DNA of 41,516 bases from Pseudomonadota bacterium (GTDB lineage: Bacteria; Pseudomonadota; Alphaproteobacteria; UBA828), in contig JAQBTG010000037.1 in NCBI GenBank assembly GCA_027624955.1, forward strand, positions 1 to 41,516, given 5' to 3'. The notes under the pieces were generated by a model. That model made no database searches, was not told the origin of the DNA, and saw nothing but the letters and a program-made list of their open reading frames with translations. Positions within the stretch are counted from its first letter, which is position 1, and each line of letters starts with the position of its first letter. Shown piece after piece: positions 27,300 through 37,816 of the stretch. The translations under genes and the position numbers were made by a program.

Positions 27300-27598
27300 A
27301 CGCGCGAGATTACTACAAAGACTTCGGACTGCCATAATTTGGCGGAGTTTGGCGGATGGCGATGTTTGGAGAAACGACGGGCTAACTAATCCGGAAACGG
27401 CGTGAGCCAGTTAGATTCACCGCGAGGGGCGCGTCATCAAGTGCCCTCTTCGTATTTCTGGGCGCTTGAGATAGGTTACGTAGCTTGACTAGGTAAAATG
27501 CCAATCCATCAAAATTATTATTGGTATTTATTAATTTAATACAAAACGAACTGCTGGAGAGCGCCTTGAGGCGCTCTCCACCGCGAGGAGTGAGGCAC
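27300..27598. promoter_or_regulatory. Divergent intergenic region with leader hairpin
   Basis: About 300 bases between the acyl-CoA synthetase start and the DsrE-like gene. An AT-rich stretch (27480-27545) begins with a TTGACT element (27485-27490) that could be a -35; no convincing -10 is at the right distance. A strong hairpin near the DsrE-like start is listed separately. Confidence 0.35.
27555..27580 (+). promoter_or_regulatory. Perfect 11-bp hairpin in the leader of the DsrE-like gene
   Basis: TGGAGAGCGCC-TTGA-GGCGCTCTCCA, an uninterrupted 11-bp stem with a four-base loop, ending a few bases before the GAGGAG ribosome-binding site and 18 bases before the ATG. No T-tract follows, so it is not a terminator; it may stabilise the mRNA or modulate translation. 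Confidence 0.65.
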
Positions 27599-28114
27599 AT
27601 GAAGGACGAAGTAACGAGCGGCGATCGAATTGATAATTCGAAGAGCATGTCTCTGATCGTGACTAAGGGCACACTGGATTGGGGCTATCCGCCGCTTATC
27701 CTCGCGACCACTGCGGCCGCGATGGGACTCAACGTTTCGATGTTCTTCACCTTCTATGGCCTCAACCTGCTGCACAAGAAACTCGACCTGGGCGTCTCCA
27801 CACTCGGCAATCCGGGCATGAAAATGCCGATGATGGGCATGCATTTGGGATTGCCCAACATGATGAGCATGCTGCCCGGCGCCGACGGCGTGGTCACGGG
27901 CATGATGAAGAAATTGATCGATAAGAAAGGCGTGGCGTCGATCGAGGAATTGCGGGACGCCGCGGTCGAATCCGACGTCAAAATGATCGCCTGCCAGATG
28001 AGCATGGACCTATTCGAATACGAGCTCGACGATCTGATCGACGGGCCGGAACTGGGCGGTGCCGCAACCTATATCGAAACCGCGCTCAAATCCGATATCA
28101 ATCTATTCATTTGA
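27599..28114 (+). CDS. DsrE/DsrF/DrsH-like protein
   Basis: A 171-residue protein of the DsrE/F-like family (start MKDEVTSGDRI). Family features: a SLIVTKGTLDWGYPPLILATTAAAMG opening strand and helix with FFTFYGLNLL after it, a Met-rich loop (NPGMKMPMMGMHLG), and a conserved Cys in IACQMSMDLF. DsrE-like proteins work in sulfur transfer or persulfide handling together with TusA and rhodaneses. A tusA-type gene follows after 38 bases, supporting a sulfur-relay role. The ATG at 27599 has a GAGGAG site; the frame upstream passes through the leader hairpin and is not likely coding. Confidence 0.88.
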   Translation: MKDEVTSGDRIDNSKSMSLIVTKGTLDWGYPPLILATTAAAMGLNVSMFFTFYGLNLLHKKLDLGVSTLGNPGMKMPMMGMHLGLPNMMSMLPGADGVVTGMMKKLIDKKGVASIEELRDAAVESDVKMIACQMSMDLFEYELDDLIDGPELGGAATYIETALKSDINLFI

Positions 28115-30235: not shown

Positions 30236-32116
30236 TCAGAGGGGCGTCCCACCGAAAAGCCGGGCACGCAGCTCCTTGTTTTGGCGCGCGGCCTCGACAA
30301 GTTCCTGATCGGAATCATTGGCTCTAAAACACGCACTCACGCCGCGCTTGCGGGCTTCAAGAGATGGTTCATCTTTAACGCATTGCTCCATCGCGAGCGG
30401 GCATCGCGCCATAAAACTACAGCCTGGCGGGATGCCGATCGGGCTTGGCGGCTCACCCTCAAGCAGACATTCTTCGGCGTTATAACGGCGTTCTTCAATT
30501 GTCGGCACTGCGCTCAACAAGGCGCGCGTGTAGGGATGACCAGGATCGAAGAAGACGCTGTGATTGTCGGCCAGTTCAACCACCTTGCCTAGATACATCA
30601 CGGCAATTCGCGTGCAGGCACGGCGCACCATCGCGAGATCGTGCGAGATGAAGATATAGGTAAAGCCGTGCTCCTGTTGCAGCCGCTCAAACGTCTCCAA
30701 CAAGCGCGATTGCTCCACCTGATCAAGCGCCGATAGCGTTTCGTCAAGAATCAGGAGTTGCGGCTCCAGTACCAGTGCACGGGCAAGGTTGATGCGCTGT
30801 CTTTGCCCTGCGCTCAAACCCACCAAAAGGTCGCCGTACAGCGAATCCGACAAGCCGACTTCCGCCATGACGGCACGGACCCGGTCTCGAATCTCCTTGG
30901 AGTTCAACCCACCGTGAATAATCAGGGGTTCGGCAATCGTGCGGCCCACGGCCAGATGCGGTGGCAAGGCATTATAGGGGTCTTGTAAAAGAAGCTGGAA
31001 GCGACGCCGCAGCCCAATAATATCGCGCCGCTTCATCTTAGAAAGATCTGCATCTTCGTACCAGATCGTTCCTCTTTCCGGCGCCTCCACCCAACTCAGC
31101 AGGCGCGAAAGAGTCGATTTACCGCAGCCCGATTCACCGACGATGCCAAAATTTTCGCCAGCGTGCACATCGAACGTGACGCCGCGTACGGCTTCCACAT
31201 CGTTGTATCCGAAGAATCGTTTTGGATCTTTCACGCGATAGGTCTTGTATACGTCTTCGACGCGCAGGATCACTTTCTCATCCCGCACCGCCTCTTCCGG
31301 TATAAATTTTTCCTCTGTCTCCCAAATTCGAGGTATCTGGGAAAGCAACTGCTTAGTGTAATCGACGGAAGGTGCCGAAATAATCTTGGCGGGCGTGCTG
31401 CGTTCAACAATTTCGCCATGATTTAGAACAATAATGTCGTCGGCAATTTCGCGAACAACCGCGAGAGAAGACGACACAAAAATGATCGCTGTGCCAAAAT
31501 CTTCGCGCAGTTCGTGCATGAGCCGAATGATCTGGGCAGCAATTGTCACATCAAGCGGCTGGGTTACATTGTCCGCGATGAGAAACGTAGGGTTCGTAAT
31601 CAACGCGTCTACGATCAGCGCACGCTGCATCATGCCGCCAGAGTACTGAAACGGAAACTCGTGAAACCGTTCCTCAGGTCGCGGTAAGCGCACCGCCTTC
31701 ATCATCTCGATGGTGCGGCGTTTTGCTTCTGCTTTGCTGACACCCGGCTCGACGGCTCTTAGTTTCTCGACGATCTGATGACCAACAGGAATAGTGGGAT
31801 CTAGCGCGCTGCCCGGGTTGTTGCCGATATAGCCGATTTCACGTCCACGGATCGATTCGATCTCGCTCCGGCTCTCGCCGATCAATTCCCGGCCTCGATA
31901 GATGACTTTTCCCGAAGTAAACACCAGCGGCGGATCTATTGCACCAATCACCGCACGCGAAAGTACTGTCTTGCCGGATCCGCTCTCTCCGATAATGCCA
32001 AGCGCCTGGCGTTCGATGAGGTCAAAGGAGACGTTGCGCAGCACCGGAGTTGATTTCCCACCACGCACGAGGTCGACGGAGACGTCTTCGACCCGGAGTA
32101 GGATTGGCTCGCTCAC
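30236..32116 (-). CDS. Fused double ATP-binding subunit of a peptide-type ABC transporter
   Basis: 626 residues with two ABC domains (DppD-DppF type) that energise import by the two permeases. NBD1: Walker A GESGSGKT (43-50) and signature YSGGMMQR (158-165). However the Q-loop Gln is Asn99, the Walker B catalytic Glu is Asn183 (LIADNVTQPLD) and the switch His is Ser216 (FVSSSLAVV). NBD2: Walker A GESGCGKS (327-334), Q-loop LLLQDP, Walker B LILDETLSALD and switch FISHDL are intact, but its signature is LSAGQ (434-438) instead of LSGGQ. So one composite ATP site is degenerate and the other is consensus. Last gene of the operon, 2 bases after the permease. Confidence 0.93.
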   Translation of the reverse strand: MSEPILLRVEDVSVDLVRGGKSTPVLRNVSFDLIERQALGIIGESGSGKTVLSRAVIGAIDPPLVFTSGKVIYRGRELIGESRSEIESIRGREIGYIGNNPGSALDPTIPVGHQIVEKLRAVEPGVSKAEAKRRTIEMMKAVRLPRPEERFHEFPFQYSGGMMQRALIVDALITNPTFLIADNVTQPLDVTIAAQIIRLMHELREDFGTAIIFVSSSLAVVREIADDIIVLNHGEIVERSTPAKIISAPSVDYTKQLLSQIPRIWETEEKFIPEEAVRDEKVILRVEDVYKTYRVKDPKRFFGYNDVEAVRGVTFDVHAGENFGIVGESGCGKSTLSRLLSWVEAPERGTIWYEDADLSKMKRRDIIGLRRRFQLLLQDPYNALPPHLAVGRTIAEPLIIHGGLNSKEIRDRVRAVMAEVGLSDSLYGDLLVGLSAGQRQRINLARALVLEPQLLILDETLSALDQVEQSRLLETFERLQQEHGFTYIFISHDLAMVRRACTRIAVMYLGKVVELADNHSVFFDPGHPYTRALLSAVPTIEERRYNAEECLLEGEPPSPIGIPPGCSFMARCPLAMEQCVKDEPSLEARKRGVSACFRANDSDQELVEAARQNKELRARLFGGTPL

Positions 32117-32118
32117 GA

Positions 32119-33030
32119 TTAGATTACTCCCGCGAAAATCTTATTTCGTGCCCGCTCCAGTGCAGAACCCATCACATTGATGCTGAGCAGCGCAATGATC
32201 AGCAAGAGACCCGGCATCGTCGGGATCCACCAATTGTTGATGATGTATTTGGTGCCGTCCGAGATGATGTTGCCGAAGGTTGGCGTGGGAGGCTGAATAC
32301 CGATCCCGATAAAACCGAAGAGCGCCTCAAATATCATCATGCGCGCGACATCGAGCACGGCCACAAAGGCAATCGGCGGCAGGATATTGGGCGCAATCAT
32401 AATCAACATTATTCTAATGTCGGACGCGCCCAGGATCTTTGCACCGCGCACATATTCTCGTTCTCGTTCCGCCAGTGCGACGCTGCGCACGACGCGTGCG
32501 TAGATTGGCCAGCCGGCCAGCACCAGTACAGCAATGATGGTACCCGCGCTCGGCCGCGTTACGCCCAAAATCGTGATCGCCAGCACAATGAGGGGCACCG
32601 AAAGCTGCGCATCGGTCACGCGCATGAGAATCGTGTCAACCCATTTGCCCCAATAGCCCGAGATGATGCCGAGCGTACAACCCAGAATGAACATCAAGAA
32701 CACACTGGCCACGCCAATGCCGAGGGCGTTACGCAGCCCGATTAACGACCGAAGCAGCAGATCGCGCCCGAGTTGATCGGTGCCGGCCAAATGGGCAAGC
32801 GTTCCACCCTCCATGAAAAACGGCGGGGTGAACCTCGCGCGTACATTTATCTTCGTTGCTGATAAATCGGTGGCTTCTGGCAGGATAACTGCTGCAAGGA
32901 CAAGAACAAGAAAAGTACCCAATCCGAATTGGAACCCGCGCATGCGCCAGGCGAGTTGAAACATCCGCCGTGTCGTGCCGACGCCGCGTTTTTTGCCACT
33001 AGCAACCACTGTCAAATCTTCCGTCGCCAC
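32119..33030 (-). CDS. ABC transporter permease, DppC type
   Basis: A 303-residue inner-membrane permease with one N-terminal span (about 34-53) and a five-span BPD_transp_1 core. The coupling EAA-like loop reads EREYVRGAKILGASDIRI. It pairs with the upstream DppB-type permease; the genes are 1 and 2 bases apart from their neighbours, a tight operon. Substrate is decided by the binding protein. Confidence 0.92.
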   Translation of the reverse strand: MATEDLTVVASGKKRGVGTTRRMFQLAWRMRGFQFGLGTFLVLVLAAVILPEATDLSATKINVRARFTPPFFMEGGTLAHLAGTDQLGRDLLLRSLIGLRNALGIGVASVFLMFILGCTLGIISGYWGKWVDTILMRVTDAQLSVPLIVLAITILGVTRPSAGTIIAVLVLAGWPIYARVVRSVALAEREREYVRGAKILGASDIRIMLIMIAPNILPPIAFVAVLDVARMMIFEALFGFIGIGIQPPTPTFGNIISDGTKYIINNWWIPTMPGLLLIIALLSINVMGSALERARNKIFAGVI

Positions 33031-33031
33031 G

Positions 33032-34060
33032 TCAGTACTTAAGCCTTCTATCGATATATGTCGCGATTAGATCAACAAATATGTTGACCGAAACGAGGGT
33101 TCCTGCGGCCAATATCGCGACCCCTTGGATAATTGGAAAATCGCGCTGCAGGACAGCCTGAATCGTAAGTTTACCGACACCCGGATAGTCGAAGATATAC
33201 TCGGTCACAAACACACCACCGAGCAGTAGCCCGCCGATTTGTACGCCGAAGAGATTGAGCATCGGAATTGATGAATTGCGGACAATGTGCCGCCAAACTA
33301 TTTGCCGCCATGGCAGGCCGCGCAATCGACCGCCATCGACAAAGCCTTGCTGCAGGTTTCCGGCAATGGCTACAGAGAGCCCGCGAATGATTATCGGCGC
33401 CAGCTCCACCGCGAGCACAATCGCCGGCAATATCGTGTAGCTAAAACCTTTGTAGCCAATAGCGGGGAGCAAATTTGCTCGTGTGGATACCAGCAGAATC
33501 AATACAAGCGCCAGCCAAAAATTTGGCAGAGACACAAACAGCGAACTCGTAAAGAAGGCGATCCTATCTTGCCATTTTTCGGGTTTCAGGCCGCCAGCGA
33601 TTCCGAGCGGCACCGCGACGAATAGAGTAAACAACAGACCGAGACCAGCTAGCTGCAATGTATAGGGCAAACCGTCGCCGATTAATTTGATCACATGTGC
33701 GCGCCGGGTTTTGAGGGATTCCTCGCGCTCCCGTTCACCTTCCTCGGTGACTCGCCCGCCTTGTTTCGACTGCGCCGTGGGTGCTGCACCGCCTGATTCG
33801 CCAAGCAGATAGGATTGACCGAGATCGCCATTGAATAAGTCGACGATGTAGCGGCCATACTGCTCGTGAATGGGGTCTCTGAGGCCGAGTTCCGCCGCCT
33901 TTTGCTCCAGCACGGCCTCGCTGACGTTGGCGCCCAACATCATGCGAACAGGATCTCCCGGAATGATCCGCAACAGCGTGAAGATCAAAAAAGAAACCAA
34001 GAAGACGACAACAACGCCTTGGGCGAGCCGCCGCAGCAGGAACGTGAGTATAAAGGCCAT
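33032..34060 (-). CDS. ABC transporter permease, DppB type
   Basis: A 342-residue permease with the conserved N-terminal segment (LLRRLAQGVVVVFLVSFLIFTLL read in pieces) and IPGDPVRMMLG motif of the DppB/OppB family, then the transport core. Between span 1 and the core is a longer polar region (about 75-118, Gly/Ser-rich then GEREREESLKTRR) than usual. It follows the binding-protein gene after 62 bases that contain a strong hairpin. Confidence 0.92.
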   Translation of the reverse strand: MAFILTFLLRRLAQGVVVVFLVSFLIFTLLRIIPGDPVRMMLGANVSEAVLEQKAAELGLRDPIHEQYGRYIVDLFNGDLGQSYLLGESGGAAPTAQSKQGGRVTEEGEREREESLKTRRAHVIKLIGDGLPYTLQLAGLGLLFTLFVAVPLGIAGGLKPEKWQDRIAFFTSSLFVSLPNFWLALVLILLVSTRANLLPAIGYKGFSYTILPAIVLAVELAPIIIRGLSVAIAGNLQQGFVDGGRLRGLPWRQIVWRHIVRNSSIPMLNLFGVQIGGLLLGGVFVTEYIFDYPGVGKLTIQAVLQRDFPIIQGVAILAAGTLVSVNIFVDLIATYIDRRLKY

Positions 34061-34122: not shown

Positions 34123-35688
34123 TTAGAGCGCTGACCAAGTGGCCTTGGAAAGATCCATCGGGCCGTTTGGATAAATATAAAGGTCTTTCAACCCCTTATT
34201 GTGTGCGTGGATAAGCACCGACGTAAACAATCCGAAACTCGGCATTTGCTTGGCGAGAGCCGGCATCAGCTTGGTTTGAATAGCCGCTTTACGAGCAGCT
34301 GGATCGCCGATGGATTGTTGCAAATCGATAACGCCGTCGAGTTCGTCGTTGACGCAGTTGCTCAAGATTTGGCCATCGGAGTGCCACATCGGCCGAACCA
34401 CCAGATTAGGCTCGGGCGAACCGGTCATCCAACCCGTATCAGCAAGCTGTGTACCGGTCGGACCCTTGTCGAATACTTTGTCGAGCCATGCTGCGACTTC
34501 CATCACGGTGAATGTGACGGGAAATCCCTGTTCTTGCAGCATCGCCGTCATGACTTCGCCGTATTCCTTGGTCTTGGGGTAGAAGCCAACCGAGGTCAGA
34601 TACTCGATGTCGGGCAAACCATCGCCCTTCGGATAACCTGCTTCCGCCAATAGTTCCTGACAGCGTGCGGGGTCATATTCCGGAGATCCAGGAATATCGT
34701 CGGTATAGCCGAATTTAACTGGCGACAACTGGCCATTCGACTTGTGTCCGGCCGGACCCATGATTTCAAGGATCAGTTCGCGGTCGATGGCATGGCAGGC
34801 GGCGTGACGGATCCGCACATCGTCAAATGGCGGCTTTTGACAGCGGAAATGCAGGTATTTGTTTTCCGTAGAGATCGTCCGCACGACGTCGACATCTTCA
34901 GTGAGGAGCGTTTCGTACTGTTCTGGCTCGATCCGCTCGATCAGATCGGCTTCACCGCCAAGCAGGCTCAACAAACGCGTGTTCGCGTCGCCCACAAAGG
35001 TTGAGATGTATTCCTCAATCTCTGGCTTGCCGAAGTGATATTTGTCATAGGCCTCAAGGCGAGTGGTAGGACCGTCCCGACCAACGAACTTATAGTAGCT
35101 CGTTCCGTTCGGGCGTTCGCCGATCGCATTATTTTTAATATCGTCGGCAGACATGATCGGCAGGAAGCCCGCCAGAAAATAAAACAGCGAACCAGGATAG
35201 GCGCCGTCGGCGGCGCGCAAACGGACGGTCCGAGAATCAACGACTTCGGCTTCCGCCTGACCTGGATACCATGTGCCCGCCGGACGTTCCGGGTTGGACG
35301 CGTATTCGATCGTCGCTTTCACATCTTCCGGACCGAATTTTTGGCCAGCATGGAAATATACGTCGTCACGCAGGGTGTATTCGATGGTCTTCTCATCGAT
35401 GACCCGGTGCCCGATCGCCAAATCAAATTGAATTTCTTCCGGGTCGGACTGGGTCATCGGCGTCTGAATCAGTTTTCCAAACACATGATGTTCGAAATAA
35501 ATCTGAGCCAAAATTGTGTGCGATGTAACATCCCAACTTGCCGTCAACGGTTCGGTTTGAAGATAAGTGATGTTTTTGCGCCCTTGTGCGAGGGCTTTCT
35601 TGAAATAGGGTGCCTTGCCAACAAGTGCGGTTGCGGCGCCTGCGGCGGCAGCAGTTTTGAGAAACGTCCGGCGTGTCGTTTTGGTCAT
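34123..35688 (-). CDS. ABC transporter substrate-binding protein, family 5 (DppA type)
   Basis: A 521-residue periplasmic binding protein. The N-terminus carries a twin-arginine (Tat) signal: R6-R7-T-F-L-K followed by an Ala-rich hydrophobic stretch and cleavage near ALA. Family 5 features include the EYTLRDDVYFHAG motif and the C-terminal peptide/nickel-binding fold. These proteins bind peptides, opines, sugars or other small solutes; the ligand is unknown. The start at 35688 has a GGGAGAAG site; an upstream in-frame ATG at 35748 would bury the Tat motif 20 residues in and is less likely. First ABC gene of the operon. Confidence 0.92.
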   Translation of the reverse strand: MTKTTRRTFLKTAAAAGAATALVGKAPYFKKALAQGRKNITYLQTEPLTASWDVTSHTILAQIYFEHHVFGKLIQTPMTQSDPEEIQFDLAIGHRVIDEKTIEYTLRDDVYFHAGQKFGPEDVKATIEYASNPERPAGTWYPGQAEAEVVDSRTVRLRAADGAYPGSLFYFLAGFLPIMSADDIKNNAIGERPNGTSYYKFVGRDGPTTRLEAYDKYHFGKPEIEEYISTFVGDANTRLLSLLGGEADLIERIEPEQYETLLTEDVDVVRTISTENKYLHFRCQKPPFDDVRIRHAACHAIDRELILEIMGPAGHKSNGQLSPVKFGYTDDIPGSPEYDPARCQELLAEAGYPKGDGLPDIEYLTSVGFYPKTKEYGEVMTAMLQEQGFPVTFTVMEVAAWLDKVFDKGPTGTQLADTGWMTGSPEPNLVVRPMWHSDGQILSNCVNDELDGVIDLQQSIGDPAARKAAIQTKLMPALAKQMPSFGLFTSVLIHAHNKGLKDLYIYPNGPMDLSKATWSAL

Positions 35689-36029
35689 AAATCTTCTCCC
35701 AATGACGGTCCGGGCTCTGTATTGACCCGTGACGTCGTCTGAATTCACTCGCCCAGCGGCTTACGCAGTCCAAAATCAGGAAATACTGGTCGAGTCTCCC
35801 AACGAGCAAAATAATTGATGCCGAAGCGCGGCAGACGCCACGCAAGATCAGTATCAGAGGTTAAGACAGAATATTACAAGTGACAAATGTATTATTGCGT
35901 CGCTTGACTCCCCCACAATATTTACACCTTTTTTTCGTATTATTGACCGTCTTACAATCACACTTATTCGCTGTATTAATATATCGCGACTAAAACCCCC
36001 GACTTGATGCGAAGACCAGAATTCAATCG
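35689..36029. promoter_or_regulatory. Region upstream of the ABC operon
   Basis: 341 bases between the GMC gene stop and the binding-protein start, both on the minus strand. The part 35870-36000 is very AT-rich and likely contains the operon promoter. I see no clear -35/-10 pair, operator palindrome or T-tract terminator. Confidence 0.35.
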
Positions 36030-37640
36030 TCAATCGCGCGCATCCTGCAGGATCATGTCTGACGCCTTTTCACCGATCATGATGGTTGGAGCATTGGTAT
36101 TTGCGCTCGTCACGATTGGCATGACCGAGGCATCCACAACGCGCAGGTTCTCAACTCCAATGACACGCAATCGCGGGTCGACCACAGCCATTTCGTCCGT
36201 ACCCATTTTGCACGTGCCCACAGGATGGTAGGTCGGCAGAGTGTGGCTTCGAATAAAACCCTCCATATCTGCGTCGCTCTGCATATCGACATCACTCTTG
36301 GGCAGCGCTATGCCCTCGAAATGCTTTTGGAAAGCTGGAGCGTCGACAATCCTTCGTACGATGCGGCAACCGTCGATCATGCGTCTCAGATCGTCTTCGT
36401 CCTCTAGCAGGCGAGAATTAATCTTGGGCGGCTCATTCGGATCTGAGGCGCGCAGGCAAATGTCGCTTCGACTGCTTGGCCGGCAGACGTTTACCGGAAT
36501 CGTCACTGCCGGGCGCTTCATCATCGACAACCCCTCCGGCCCAAAATCATATCCCACCGGTGTGAAATGCAGTTGGATGTCTGGCCGGGTCTCCGTTTCG
36601 GGGCGGGTGCGCAGGAATGCCACGGCATGCGAAATTGAATTTGCCGCCGCGCCCTTGCCGCGCAACAGCCAATTGGAGAGGTGCTTAACGTAATAATAGG
36701 GCGTGAGTTCCATGTTGTAGGTGGAGATATTTACATAGGCCGCAACCCAGACCACAGGATGCTCCTGGAGGTTTTGCCCGACGCCCGCGCTGTGGTGAAC
36801 AATTTCGATGCCCATCTCGCGTAAATGGGCCTCTGGGCCAATACCCGAACGCAGCAAGACCGTGGGCGACGCGATAGCGCCACAGGCGACAATCACTTCA
36901 CCCGCGGTGCGTTCTTCTTGAACCTGGCCGTCCCGCAGGAAGCGGATACCGACGGCCCTCTTGCCTTCGAATATAACTTTGTCTGCTTTCGCACCCGTGA
37001 CAACCGTCAGGTTTGCACGCGCGCGCGCCGGTTTTAGATAAGCCTGTGCGGTGCTATTTCGCCGGCCGAAACGGATCGTGCCCTGACTGGGGCCAACGCC
37101 CTCTTGCGTTTCACCGTTTACGTCGGCGTTGAACGGAATGCCGGCCTGCTGTGCCGCTTCCAGAAATACAGCCGTGAGCGGATGTGGTGAAGGCGTATCG
37201 GTAACTTCGAGCGGGCCGTCGGCACCATGATATTCGCTCGGGCCGAGCGGGTTTTTTTCCATTCGAATGAAGTAAGGCAGCACATCGCGGTAACTCCAGT
37301 CCGTACGATTGCCCATCAGCCGGGCCCACTCGTCATAATCTTCGTGCTGGCCACGCAGATAGACCATGCCGTTGATCGAGCTACTGCCGCCCAACACTTT
37401 GCCGCCGGGCCACATGTCGATTCTTCCGTTCAGCGAGGGGTCGGGTTCGCACATGTACTGCCAATTAAATTTCGGATTGTTGATCGCCTTGACCTCGCCG
37501 CCAGGCACTCGAATCTGCGGCGAATTGTCTTTGCCACCGGCTTCCAAAAGCAGCACATTGTTCTTCGGATCCGCTGAAAGACGGTAGGCTAGAACGCAAC
37601 CAGCTGATCCGGCGCCAACGATGATGTAGTCCCACGCCAT
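36030..37640 (-). CDS. GMC-family FAD oxidoreductase (choline dehydrogenase-like)
   Basis: A 536-residue flavoprotein. FAD motif YIIVGAGSAGCVLAYRL at residues 4-20, GMC signature GGKVLGGSSSINGMVYLRG (about 79-97), and the C-terminal catalytic region with His in THPVGTCKMG-like YHPVGTCKMG and Asn in SANTNAPT. Oxidises an alcohol, often to the aldehyde; choline is only one option. It lies upstream of the ABC operon on the same strand (341-base gap), so imported solute may be its substrate (inference). AGGAGG site before the ATG at 37640; the longer frame upstream is unlikely. Confidence 0.9.
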   Translation of the reverse strand: MAWDYIIVGAGSAGCVLAYRLSADPKNNVLLLEAGGKDNSPQIRVPGGEVKAINNPKFNWQYMCEPDPSLNGRIDMWPGGKVLGGSSSINGMVYLRGQHEDYDEWARLMGNRTDWSYRDVLPYFIRMEKNPLGPSEYHGADGPLEVTDTPSPHPLTAVFLEAAQQAGIPFNADVNGETQEGVGPSQGTIRFGRRNSTAQAYLKPARARANLTVVTGAKADKVIFEGKRAVGIRFLRDGQVQEERTAGEVIVACGAIASPTVLLRSGIGPEAHLREMGIEIVHHSAGVGQNLQEHPVVWVAAYVNISTYNMELTPYYYVKHLSNWLLRGKGAAANSISHAVAFLRTRPETETRPDIQLHFTPVGYDFGPEGLSMMKRPAVTIPVNVCRPSSRSDICLRASDPNEPPKINSRLLEDEDDLRRMIDGCRIVRRIVDAPAFQKHFEGIALPKSDVDMQSDADMEGFIRSHTLPTYHPVGTCKMGTDEMAVVDPRLRVIGVENLRVVDASVMPIVTSANTNAPTIMIGEKASDMILQDARD

Positions 37641-37816
37641 GCATTCCTCCTGGTTTGGTGGCAGAAATTTTTTGCAGTGACAGCATCGTACCAATTCTGC
37701 ATCGCATCAATTACCTGTGGAACGATTCGTGACGGCCAGTGTACAGACAAGCGACCGAATCATGCTCATCGCGGACTGAACGGCTATAGTGCAGCCATTG
37801 AAAAACTGGAGATGTC

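Follow-up and report, generated by a model that had tools for sequence, protein, structure and literature searches.

The window analysed here, a stretch of 41,516 nucleotides, encodes a fused ATPase that belongs to an Opp/Dpp-type importer and has two ATP sites, one of them degenerate; this degeneracy is shared by the whole subfamily to which the protein belongs. The gene lies at 30236..32116 on the minus strand, begins with a GTG start and codes for 626 amino acids with two NBDs. Throughout, site 1 denotes the composite site formed by the Walker motifs of NBD1 and the signature of NBD2, and site 2 the one formed by the Walker motifs of NBD2 and the signature of NBD1; the degenerate site is site 1. 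We think it rather likely that the importer is permanently asymmetric, with site 2 hydrolysing ATP and a non-hydrolysing site 1 that probably holds ATP as a brace.

Two unequal ATP sites in a fused ATPase

The product of 30236-32116 is a fused DppD-DppF-type ATPase and serves an importer of the peptide/opine/nickel kind with a family-5 binding protein. Above its cut-offs, Pfam assigns two ABC_tran stretches and one oligo_HPY region to the protein, the combination of NBDs and C-terminal region that marks Opp/Dpp importers, and the operon supplies the SBP_bac_5 protein and the two BPD_transp_1 permeases that also belong to such systems. Against the NCBIfam equivalogs for the fused ATPases of E. 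coli, the protein stays below the cut-offs, scoring 390 bits for GsiA (cut-off 1077) and 397 bits for YejF (cut-off 834). The oligo_HPY region contains a stretch of four cysteines (Cys566, Cys572, Cys579 and Cys596; 30329..30421, minus strand), which are putative ligands of the 4Fe-4S cluster expected in the C-terminal domain of Opp/Dpp ATPases, and their spacing is like that given for the 4Fe-4S domain of DppF in excerpts of PMC12136057. All four are present in 89 of 89 subfamily rows (duplicates included), and they are located after NBD2 only.

The original prediction was that NBD1 has lost its Q-loop Gln, its Walker B catalytic Glu and its switch His, and that the only altered signature is that of NBD2. 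A scripted position check confirmed the replacements in NBD1, where Asn99 (31820..31822) stands for the Gln, Asn183 (31568..31570) for the Glu and Ser216 (31469..31471) for the His, the switch triplet being wholly altered from THD to SSS. The claim about the signatures held as well. That of NBD2, which faces the Walker motifs of NBD1, reads LSAGQ (residues 434-438; 30803..30817), with its first Gly replaced, and that of NBD1, YSGGM (residues 158-162; 31631..31645), which serves site 2, keeps its Ser-Gly-Gly. Walker A of NBD1, GESGSGKT (residues 43-50; 31967..31990), is intact. So are all the motifs of NBD2, with GESGCGKS at 327, LLQDP at 376, LILDE at 455 and ISHD at 490, including the catalytic Glu459 (30740..30742) and the switch His492 (30641..30643); all of these features lie on the minus strand.

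The NBDs of an ABC dimer are arranged head to tail, with the Walker motifs of NBD1 paired with the signature of NBD2 in one composite site. Because of this arrangement, Asn99, Asn183, Ser216 and LSAGQ all fall in site 1, as had been proposed. The protein departs from the canonical two-site DppDF/OppDF arrangement, in which Gln, Glu, His and the signature Gly-Gly are present in both NBDs, and agrees with the pattern of ABC proteins with one degenerate site, where the catalytic Glu is gone from one NBD and the signature of the other is altered.

An AlphaFold model of the ATPase (79 sequences; pLDDT 93.6, pTM 0.92) superposes across both NBDs on the solved fused DppD and OppD of Mycobacterium tuberculosis, its nearest solved full-length relatives, over 512-537 residues with an rmsd of 2.2-3.6. 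For OppD, 536-537 residues are matched with an rmsd of 2.2 (the pre-catalytic structure, which fits best of all), 3.3 and 3.5; for DppD, 512-521 residues are matched with an rmsd of 2.8 to 3.6. Foldseek comparison of full-length chains, with the tail counted in, yields values of 6.4-6.8 (OppD) and 3.2-3.7 (DppD). We claim no particular conformational state for the model, because apo DppD (2.8) fits it better than one ATP-bound DppD (3.6).

Conservation of the degenerate site and its likely state

The subfamily alignment consists of 91 distinct sequences with >50% identity, window included, after 10 identical rows had been dropped from 101. Positions 99, 183, 216 and 436 are all changed in 91/91 members. 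The Q-loop position 99 is Ala in 57, Ser in 18, Gly in 14 and Asn in two; the catalytic position 183 is Asn in every member; the switch position 216 is Ser in 86, Ala in three and Thr in two; and position 436, the first Gly of the NBD2 signature, is Ala in 90 and Thr in one. The opposite composite site has 14 contact positions without any deviation in the 91 members. S159, G160 and G161 of the NBD1 signature, the NBD2 Walker A Lys (K333) and Glu459 and His492 of NBD2 are each found in 91/91. In NBD1, the Walker A K49 is kept in 90/91 members and the Walker B Asp in 91/91.

When the closest relatives were checked for an intact NBD1, none was found to have one, as every member with >50% identity shares the degenerate site. 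Relatives with <50% identity in the same alignment are canonical at all four positions in 56 of 65 cases, and the other nine form a second altered group; the altered motifs were themselves the criterion for separating these nine rows, so that a count of 56 of 56 canonical would be partly by construction and 56/65 is the fair one. Position 16, which we take to lie in the A-loop region of NBD1, is never aromatic in the 91 members versus Phe in 44 of the 56 canonical relatives; 12 of the 56 are likewise without Phe. Sporadic extra losses occur in site 1, with K49M plus LSASQ in L085, LGAGD in L082, LSTGE in L141 and GASASGKT in L114.

The named-genome scan covered the best 80 of 192 loci encoding a relative, and these cannot prove that N183 is invariant, because one of the two scan patterns includes the DN found in the changed Walker B. 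A motif-free set comprises 18 members, window included, obtained from a whole-protein or profile search, the profile having been built from degenerate members. In this set, Asn183 and Ser216 are found in 18/18, Gln is found at position 99 in none, and position 436 is Ala in 17 and Thr in one.

Because the catalytic Glu, the Q-loop Gln, the switch His and the signature Gly are gone, site 1 has probably lost hydrolysis, at least at any useful rate, and ATP hydrolysis would be the work of site 2. The Walker A Lys and the Walker B Asp are kept, and for this reason site 1 most likely still holds ATP, which it would retain over several cycles as a brace. One ATP would be hydrolysed per substrate. 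Since the relatives share the same loss, importers of this kind probably run on one working site, with the other as a fixed part. In yeast Pdr5, site 1 has Asn for the catalytic Glu and is described as binding ATP with no hydrolysis, and converting this degenerate site into an active one is reported to abolish transport as well as ATPase activity (PMC8421411). A review argues that degenerate sites which are conserved have acquired another function, in which ATP may serve as a lasting glue (excerpts of PMC7756269). In E. coli DppBCDF without DppA, DppD is reported to bind no ATP analogue despite its intact motifs, and to bind it with DppA (excerpts of PMC12136057); the motifs therefore do not settle occupancy.

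The chief rival to the brace reading is that site 1 is empty, NBD1 binding no nucleotide in the cell and being kept for dimerisation and permease docking. The non-aromatic A-loop position in 91/91 members may mean weak ATP binding or none, four other contact residues are changed, and the absence of the Walker A Lys from L085 could likewise point away from occupancy. From its sequence, the degenerate site of RbsA/NupO has been proposed to be incompetent for ATP binding or hydrolysis (excerpts of PMC11466899). Yet it is difficult to account for a Walker A Lys kept in 90/91 members and a Walker B Asp kept in 91/91 if no nucleotide is bound, and we judge an empty site to be unlikely, though far from negligible. 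Residual ATP hydrolysis in site 1, whether slow or with the help of another base, is improbable: the retained Walker A and Walker B Asp would be in keeping with it, but all three of Glu, Gln and His are missing, the signature is altered, and Pdr5, whose equivalent residue is also Asn, supports no hydrolysis there (PMC8421411). The reading that we prefer is still a site 1 that holds ATP without hydrolysing it.

The operon, its permeases and its spread

Two bases upstream of the ATPase gene, on the same strand, lies permC (32119..33030, minus strand), which encodes a DppC-type permease with an ordinary coupling helix. The gene permB (33032..34060, minus strand), for a DppB-type permease, lies 1 base further upstream, and beyond it in the same direction is the gene for a family-5 substrate-binding protein (SBP) with a Tat signal (34123..35748, minus strand; SBP_bac_5, TAT_signal). 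The operon is conserved: of 81 loci, 79 have permC, 77 have permB and 74 have the SBP.

In the E. coli transporter, coupling helices attach DppB to DppD and DppC to DppF (excerpts of PMC12136057), and by analogy permB would be expected to dock on NBD1. In the window, the coupling-helix region of permB reads GFVDGGRLRGL (33314..33346, minus strand) in place of the ordinary YVRTARAKGL. The coupling motif A[RH]AKG is found in 0/75 subfamily permB sequences versus 11/11 ordinary ones, and [GA]x[VIL]RG[LI] replaces it in 75/75 (permB was obtained from 75 of 77 subfamily loci and 11 of 15 ordinary loci). The usual coupling helix is kept in permC (76 subfamily and 8 ordinary sequences). Between the first and second membrane segments, permB has 27-30 residues in 75/75 subfamily sequences versus 10-20 in the 11 ordinary ones. 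The same stretch is 43 residues long in the permB of the window. In the asymmetric importer that we propose, the half formed by NBD1 and permB, with its rebuilt coupling helix, would be the stiffer one, and movement would fall to NBD2 and permC.

The original prediction saw in these motifs the pattern of asymmetric exporters, here in an importer ATPase, and the SBP and two BPD_transp_1 permeases that adjoin the gene support this description. That the ATPase serves export or regulation instead is very improbable: pairs with one dead site are typical of exporters (excerpts of PMC7756269), but the neighbouring permeases and Tat-signal binding protein are conserved in most loci, and catabolic genes stand beside many copies of the operon.

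The neighbours within 8 kb of the operon (81 loci) fall into two sets. The first comprises DeoR (53), allantoate-amidohydrolase-like M20 (50), kinase-like (49), HisN-like (33), EutB (16) and EutC (15) genes, and the second another M20 amidohydrolase (18) with SDR, ALDH or GMC. The kinase-like gene is presumably that, judged by a motif, and gave no Pfam match at 1e-10. DeoR, M20 amidase and kinase-like genes follow many operon copies (L084, L089, L095, L101, L103, L105, L111-L113 and others), and the ethanolamine ammonia-lyase genes EutB/EutC follow 15 to 16 of the 81. Neighbouring EutB/EutC, M20, DeoR and kinase-like genes hint at an ethanolamine-yielding amide as a candidate substrate. The matches of the SBP in the PDB are weak and mixed, and nothing relevant to the substrate of the subfamily was found in open-access papers. 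Just upstream of the operon in the window is a GMC oxidoreductase gene (choline-dehydrogenase-like; 36030-37694, minus strand), relatives of which lie near 11 of the 81 loci, window included; a DsrE/DsrF-like protein (DrsE_2) is encoded near the transporter at 27521-28114 on the plus strand.

The operon is rare and patchy, occurring in about 1-4% of the genomes searched. Among 60 related genomes there are four close relatives of the ATPase, with 72-77% identity and at least 940 bits, the next match scoring 389 bits; further relatives in other families show 70, 56 and 55% identity. Members were found in 5/22 genomes of the window's order, its own included, and in 5/385 genomes of its class, 6/398 of its phylum and 7/199 of one other family, where scoring was confined to the 3 to 6 top candidates of each genome; the counts include the window's own genome where it was searched. 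Among the 77 distinct loci of the named-genome scan (best 80 of 192) are 73 from Alphaproteobacteria, two from Gammaproteobacteria, one from Betaproteobacteria and one unassigned. According to their record titles, two loci, L070 and L091, are plasmid-borne.

A tree was built with the trait columns removed, from 24 of 89 subfamily rows, 5 of 8 second-group rows and 39 canonical rows, by a quick search with SH-aLRT support only. The 24 degenerate rows are separated from all the others by a branch of length 1.54 (SH-aLRT 100). Together with the 18/18 result of the motif-free set, this upholds the proposal that the changes define a subfamily. Five genome searches, three of which scored the 3 to 6 top candidates of each genome and listed strong matches, showed no intermediates with an intact NBD1 within the subfamily, and the score gap is wide. 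Among the matches listed, members score at least 843 bits versus at most 517 for others in the phylum profile search, and at least 964 bits versus at most 512 in the profile search of the other family.

In 11 pairs, dN/dS is 0-0.12 for NBD1 and 0.03-0.11 for NBD2. NBD1 has the higher dN in 8 of the 11; the pair of the window with L002 counts little, because its dS is saturated (2.6 and 1.7). Mean pairwise identity within the subfamily is 0.578 for NBD1 versus 0.633 for NBD2, and among the canonical relatives it is 0.519 and 0.520, respectively. NBD1 is under purifying selection, somewhat less strict than on NBD2, and with such dN/dS values it has been kept; they give no support to a relaxed decay of NBD1. 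A private mutation or an artefact is rejected as the source of the four changes, which recur in all 91 members and in the motif-free set too. To a private mutation or a decaying gene we give almost no credence: NBD1 evolves slightly faster than NBD2 and the operon is patchy even in the window's order, but the changes are the same throughout the subfamily, the frames are intact and dN/dS in NBD1 is low.

Comparison with known systems

The second altered group of fused Opp/Dpp ATPases is asymmetric too and comprises L006, L007, L009-L012, L027, L054 and L143, and also L186-L190. In 9/9 of its aligned rows the NBD1 switch His is replaced by Gln and the first Gly of the NBD2 signature by Ala. The NBD2 D-loop Asp is Ser, Thr or Ala in 9/9, and the NBD1 signature Gly is Ser or Thr in 8/9, so that both sites are touched. 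In contrast to the subfamily of the window, the catalytic Glu and the Gln are kept. The coupling helix of permB is altered in this group as well (5/5). It sits on a separate branch with an SH-aLRT of 100 and has strong matches in 5/385 genomes of the class; when the group's pattern was sought as plain text in four further loci, L187 and L188 matched it and L190 matched it in part. This second branch would have changed its NBD1 switch and NBD2 signature independently, so that the asymmetry of this site may have two or more origins within the Opp/Dpp family.

We put forward, tentatively, the wider possibility that a subfamily of binding-protein-dependent importers independently reached the solution of the exporters, with a lasting ATP brace, one ATP hydrolysed per cycle and the permease helix of the silent half rebuilt. 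In importers whose two sites are equal, it is hard to settle how many ATP are hydrolysed per substrate and whether both sites are needed. In the present subfamily, every member seen has one site silenced, along with a change in the permease that would be expected to dock on that half. With a purified member, the question of one ATP per substrate could be put to a direct test in an importer, and it would become clear whether the brace proposed for exporters applies more broadly. Degenerate sites are already known from exporters and from RbsA-type sugar importers and are not new as such in importers; in open-access PMC papers, which cover the field only in part, we found no account of a degenerate-site subfamily in Opp/Dpp-type importers.

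The DppABCD and OppABCD systems of M. tuberculosis (8wd9, 8wda, 8wdb, 8xfc, 8j5q, 8j5r, 8j5s and 8j5t) likewise have two NBDs per chain, an SBP and two permeases. Unlike the protein of the window, wild-type DppD and OppD keep the Gln, Glu, His and signature Gly in both NBDs, as their alignments show. E. coli DppABCDF has subunits of the same kind, and the window ATPase shares the DppF-like NBD2 with the four-Cys stretch. In the E. coli system, however, the ATPases are two distinct proteins; the motifs of both are functional, and each carries a 4Fe-4S cluster (excerpts of PMC12136057).

The sugar and nucleoside importers of the RbsA/NupO type resemble the present system in that their importer ATPase has fused NBDs with one degenerate site. 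In RbsA/NupO (PMC11466899), the second NBD is without its Walker A Lys, whereas in the subfamily of the window both Lys are kept (K333 in 91/91, K49 in 90/91) and it is the first NBD that would have lost catalysis. The likeness to Pdr5 extends to a dead site 1, Asn for Glu in NBD1 and an altered NBD2 signature, with the NBD1 signature and the rest of NBD2 intact (PMC8421411). Pdr5 is an exporter with its membrane domains in the same chain, whereas the ATPase of the window works with separate BPD_transp_1 permeases of the importer type and has a binding protein alongside.
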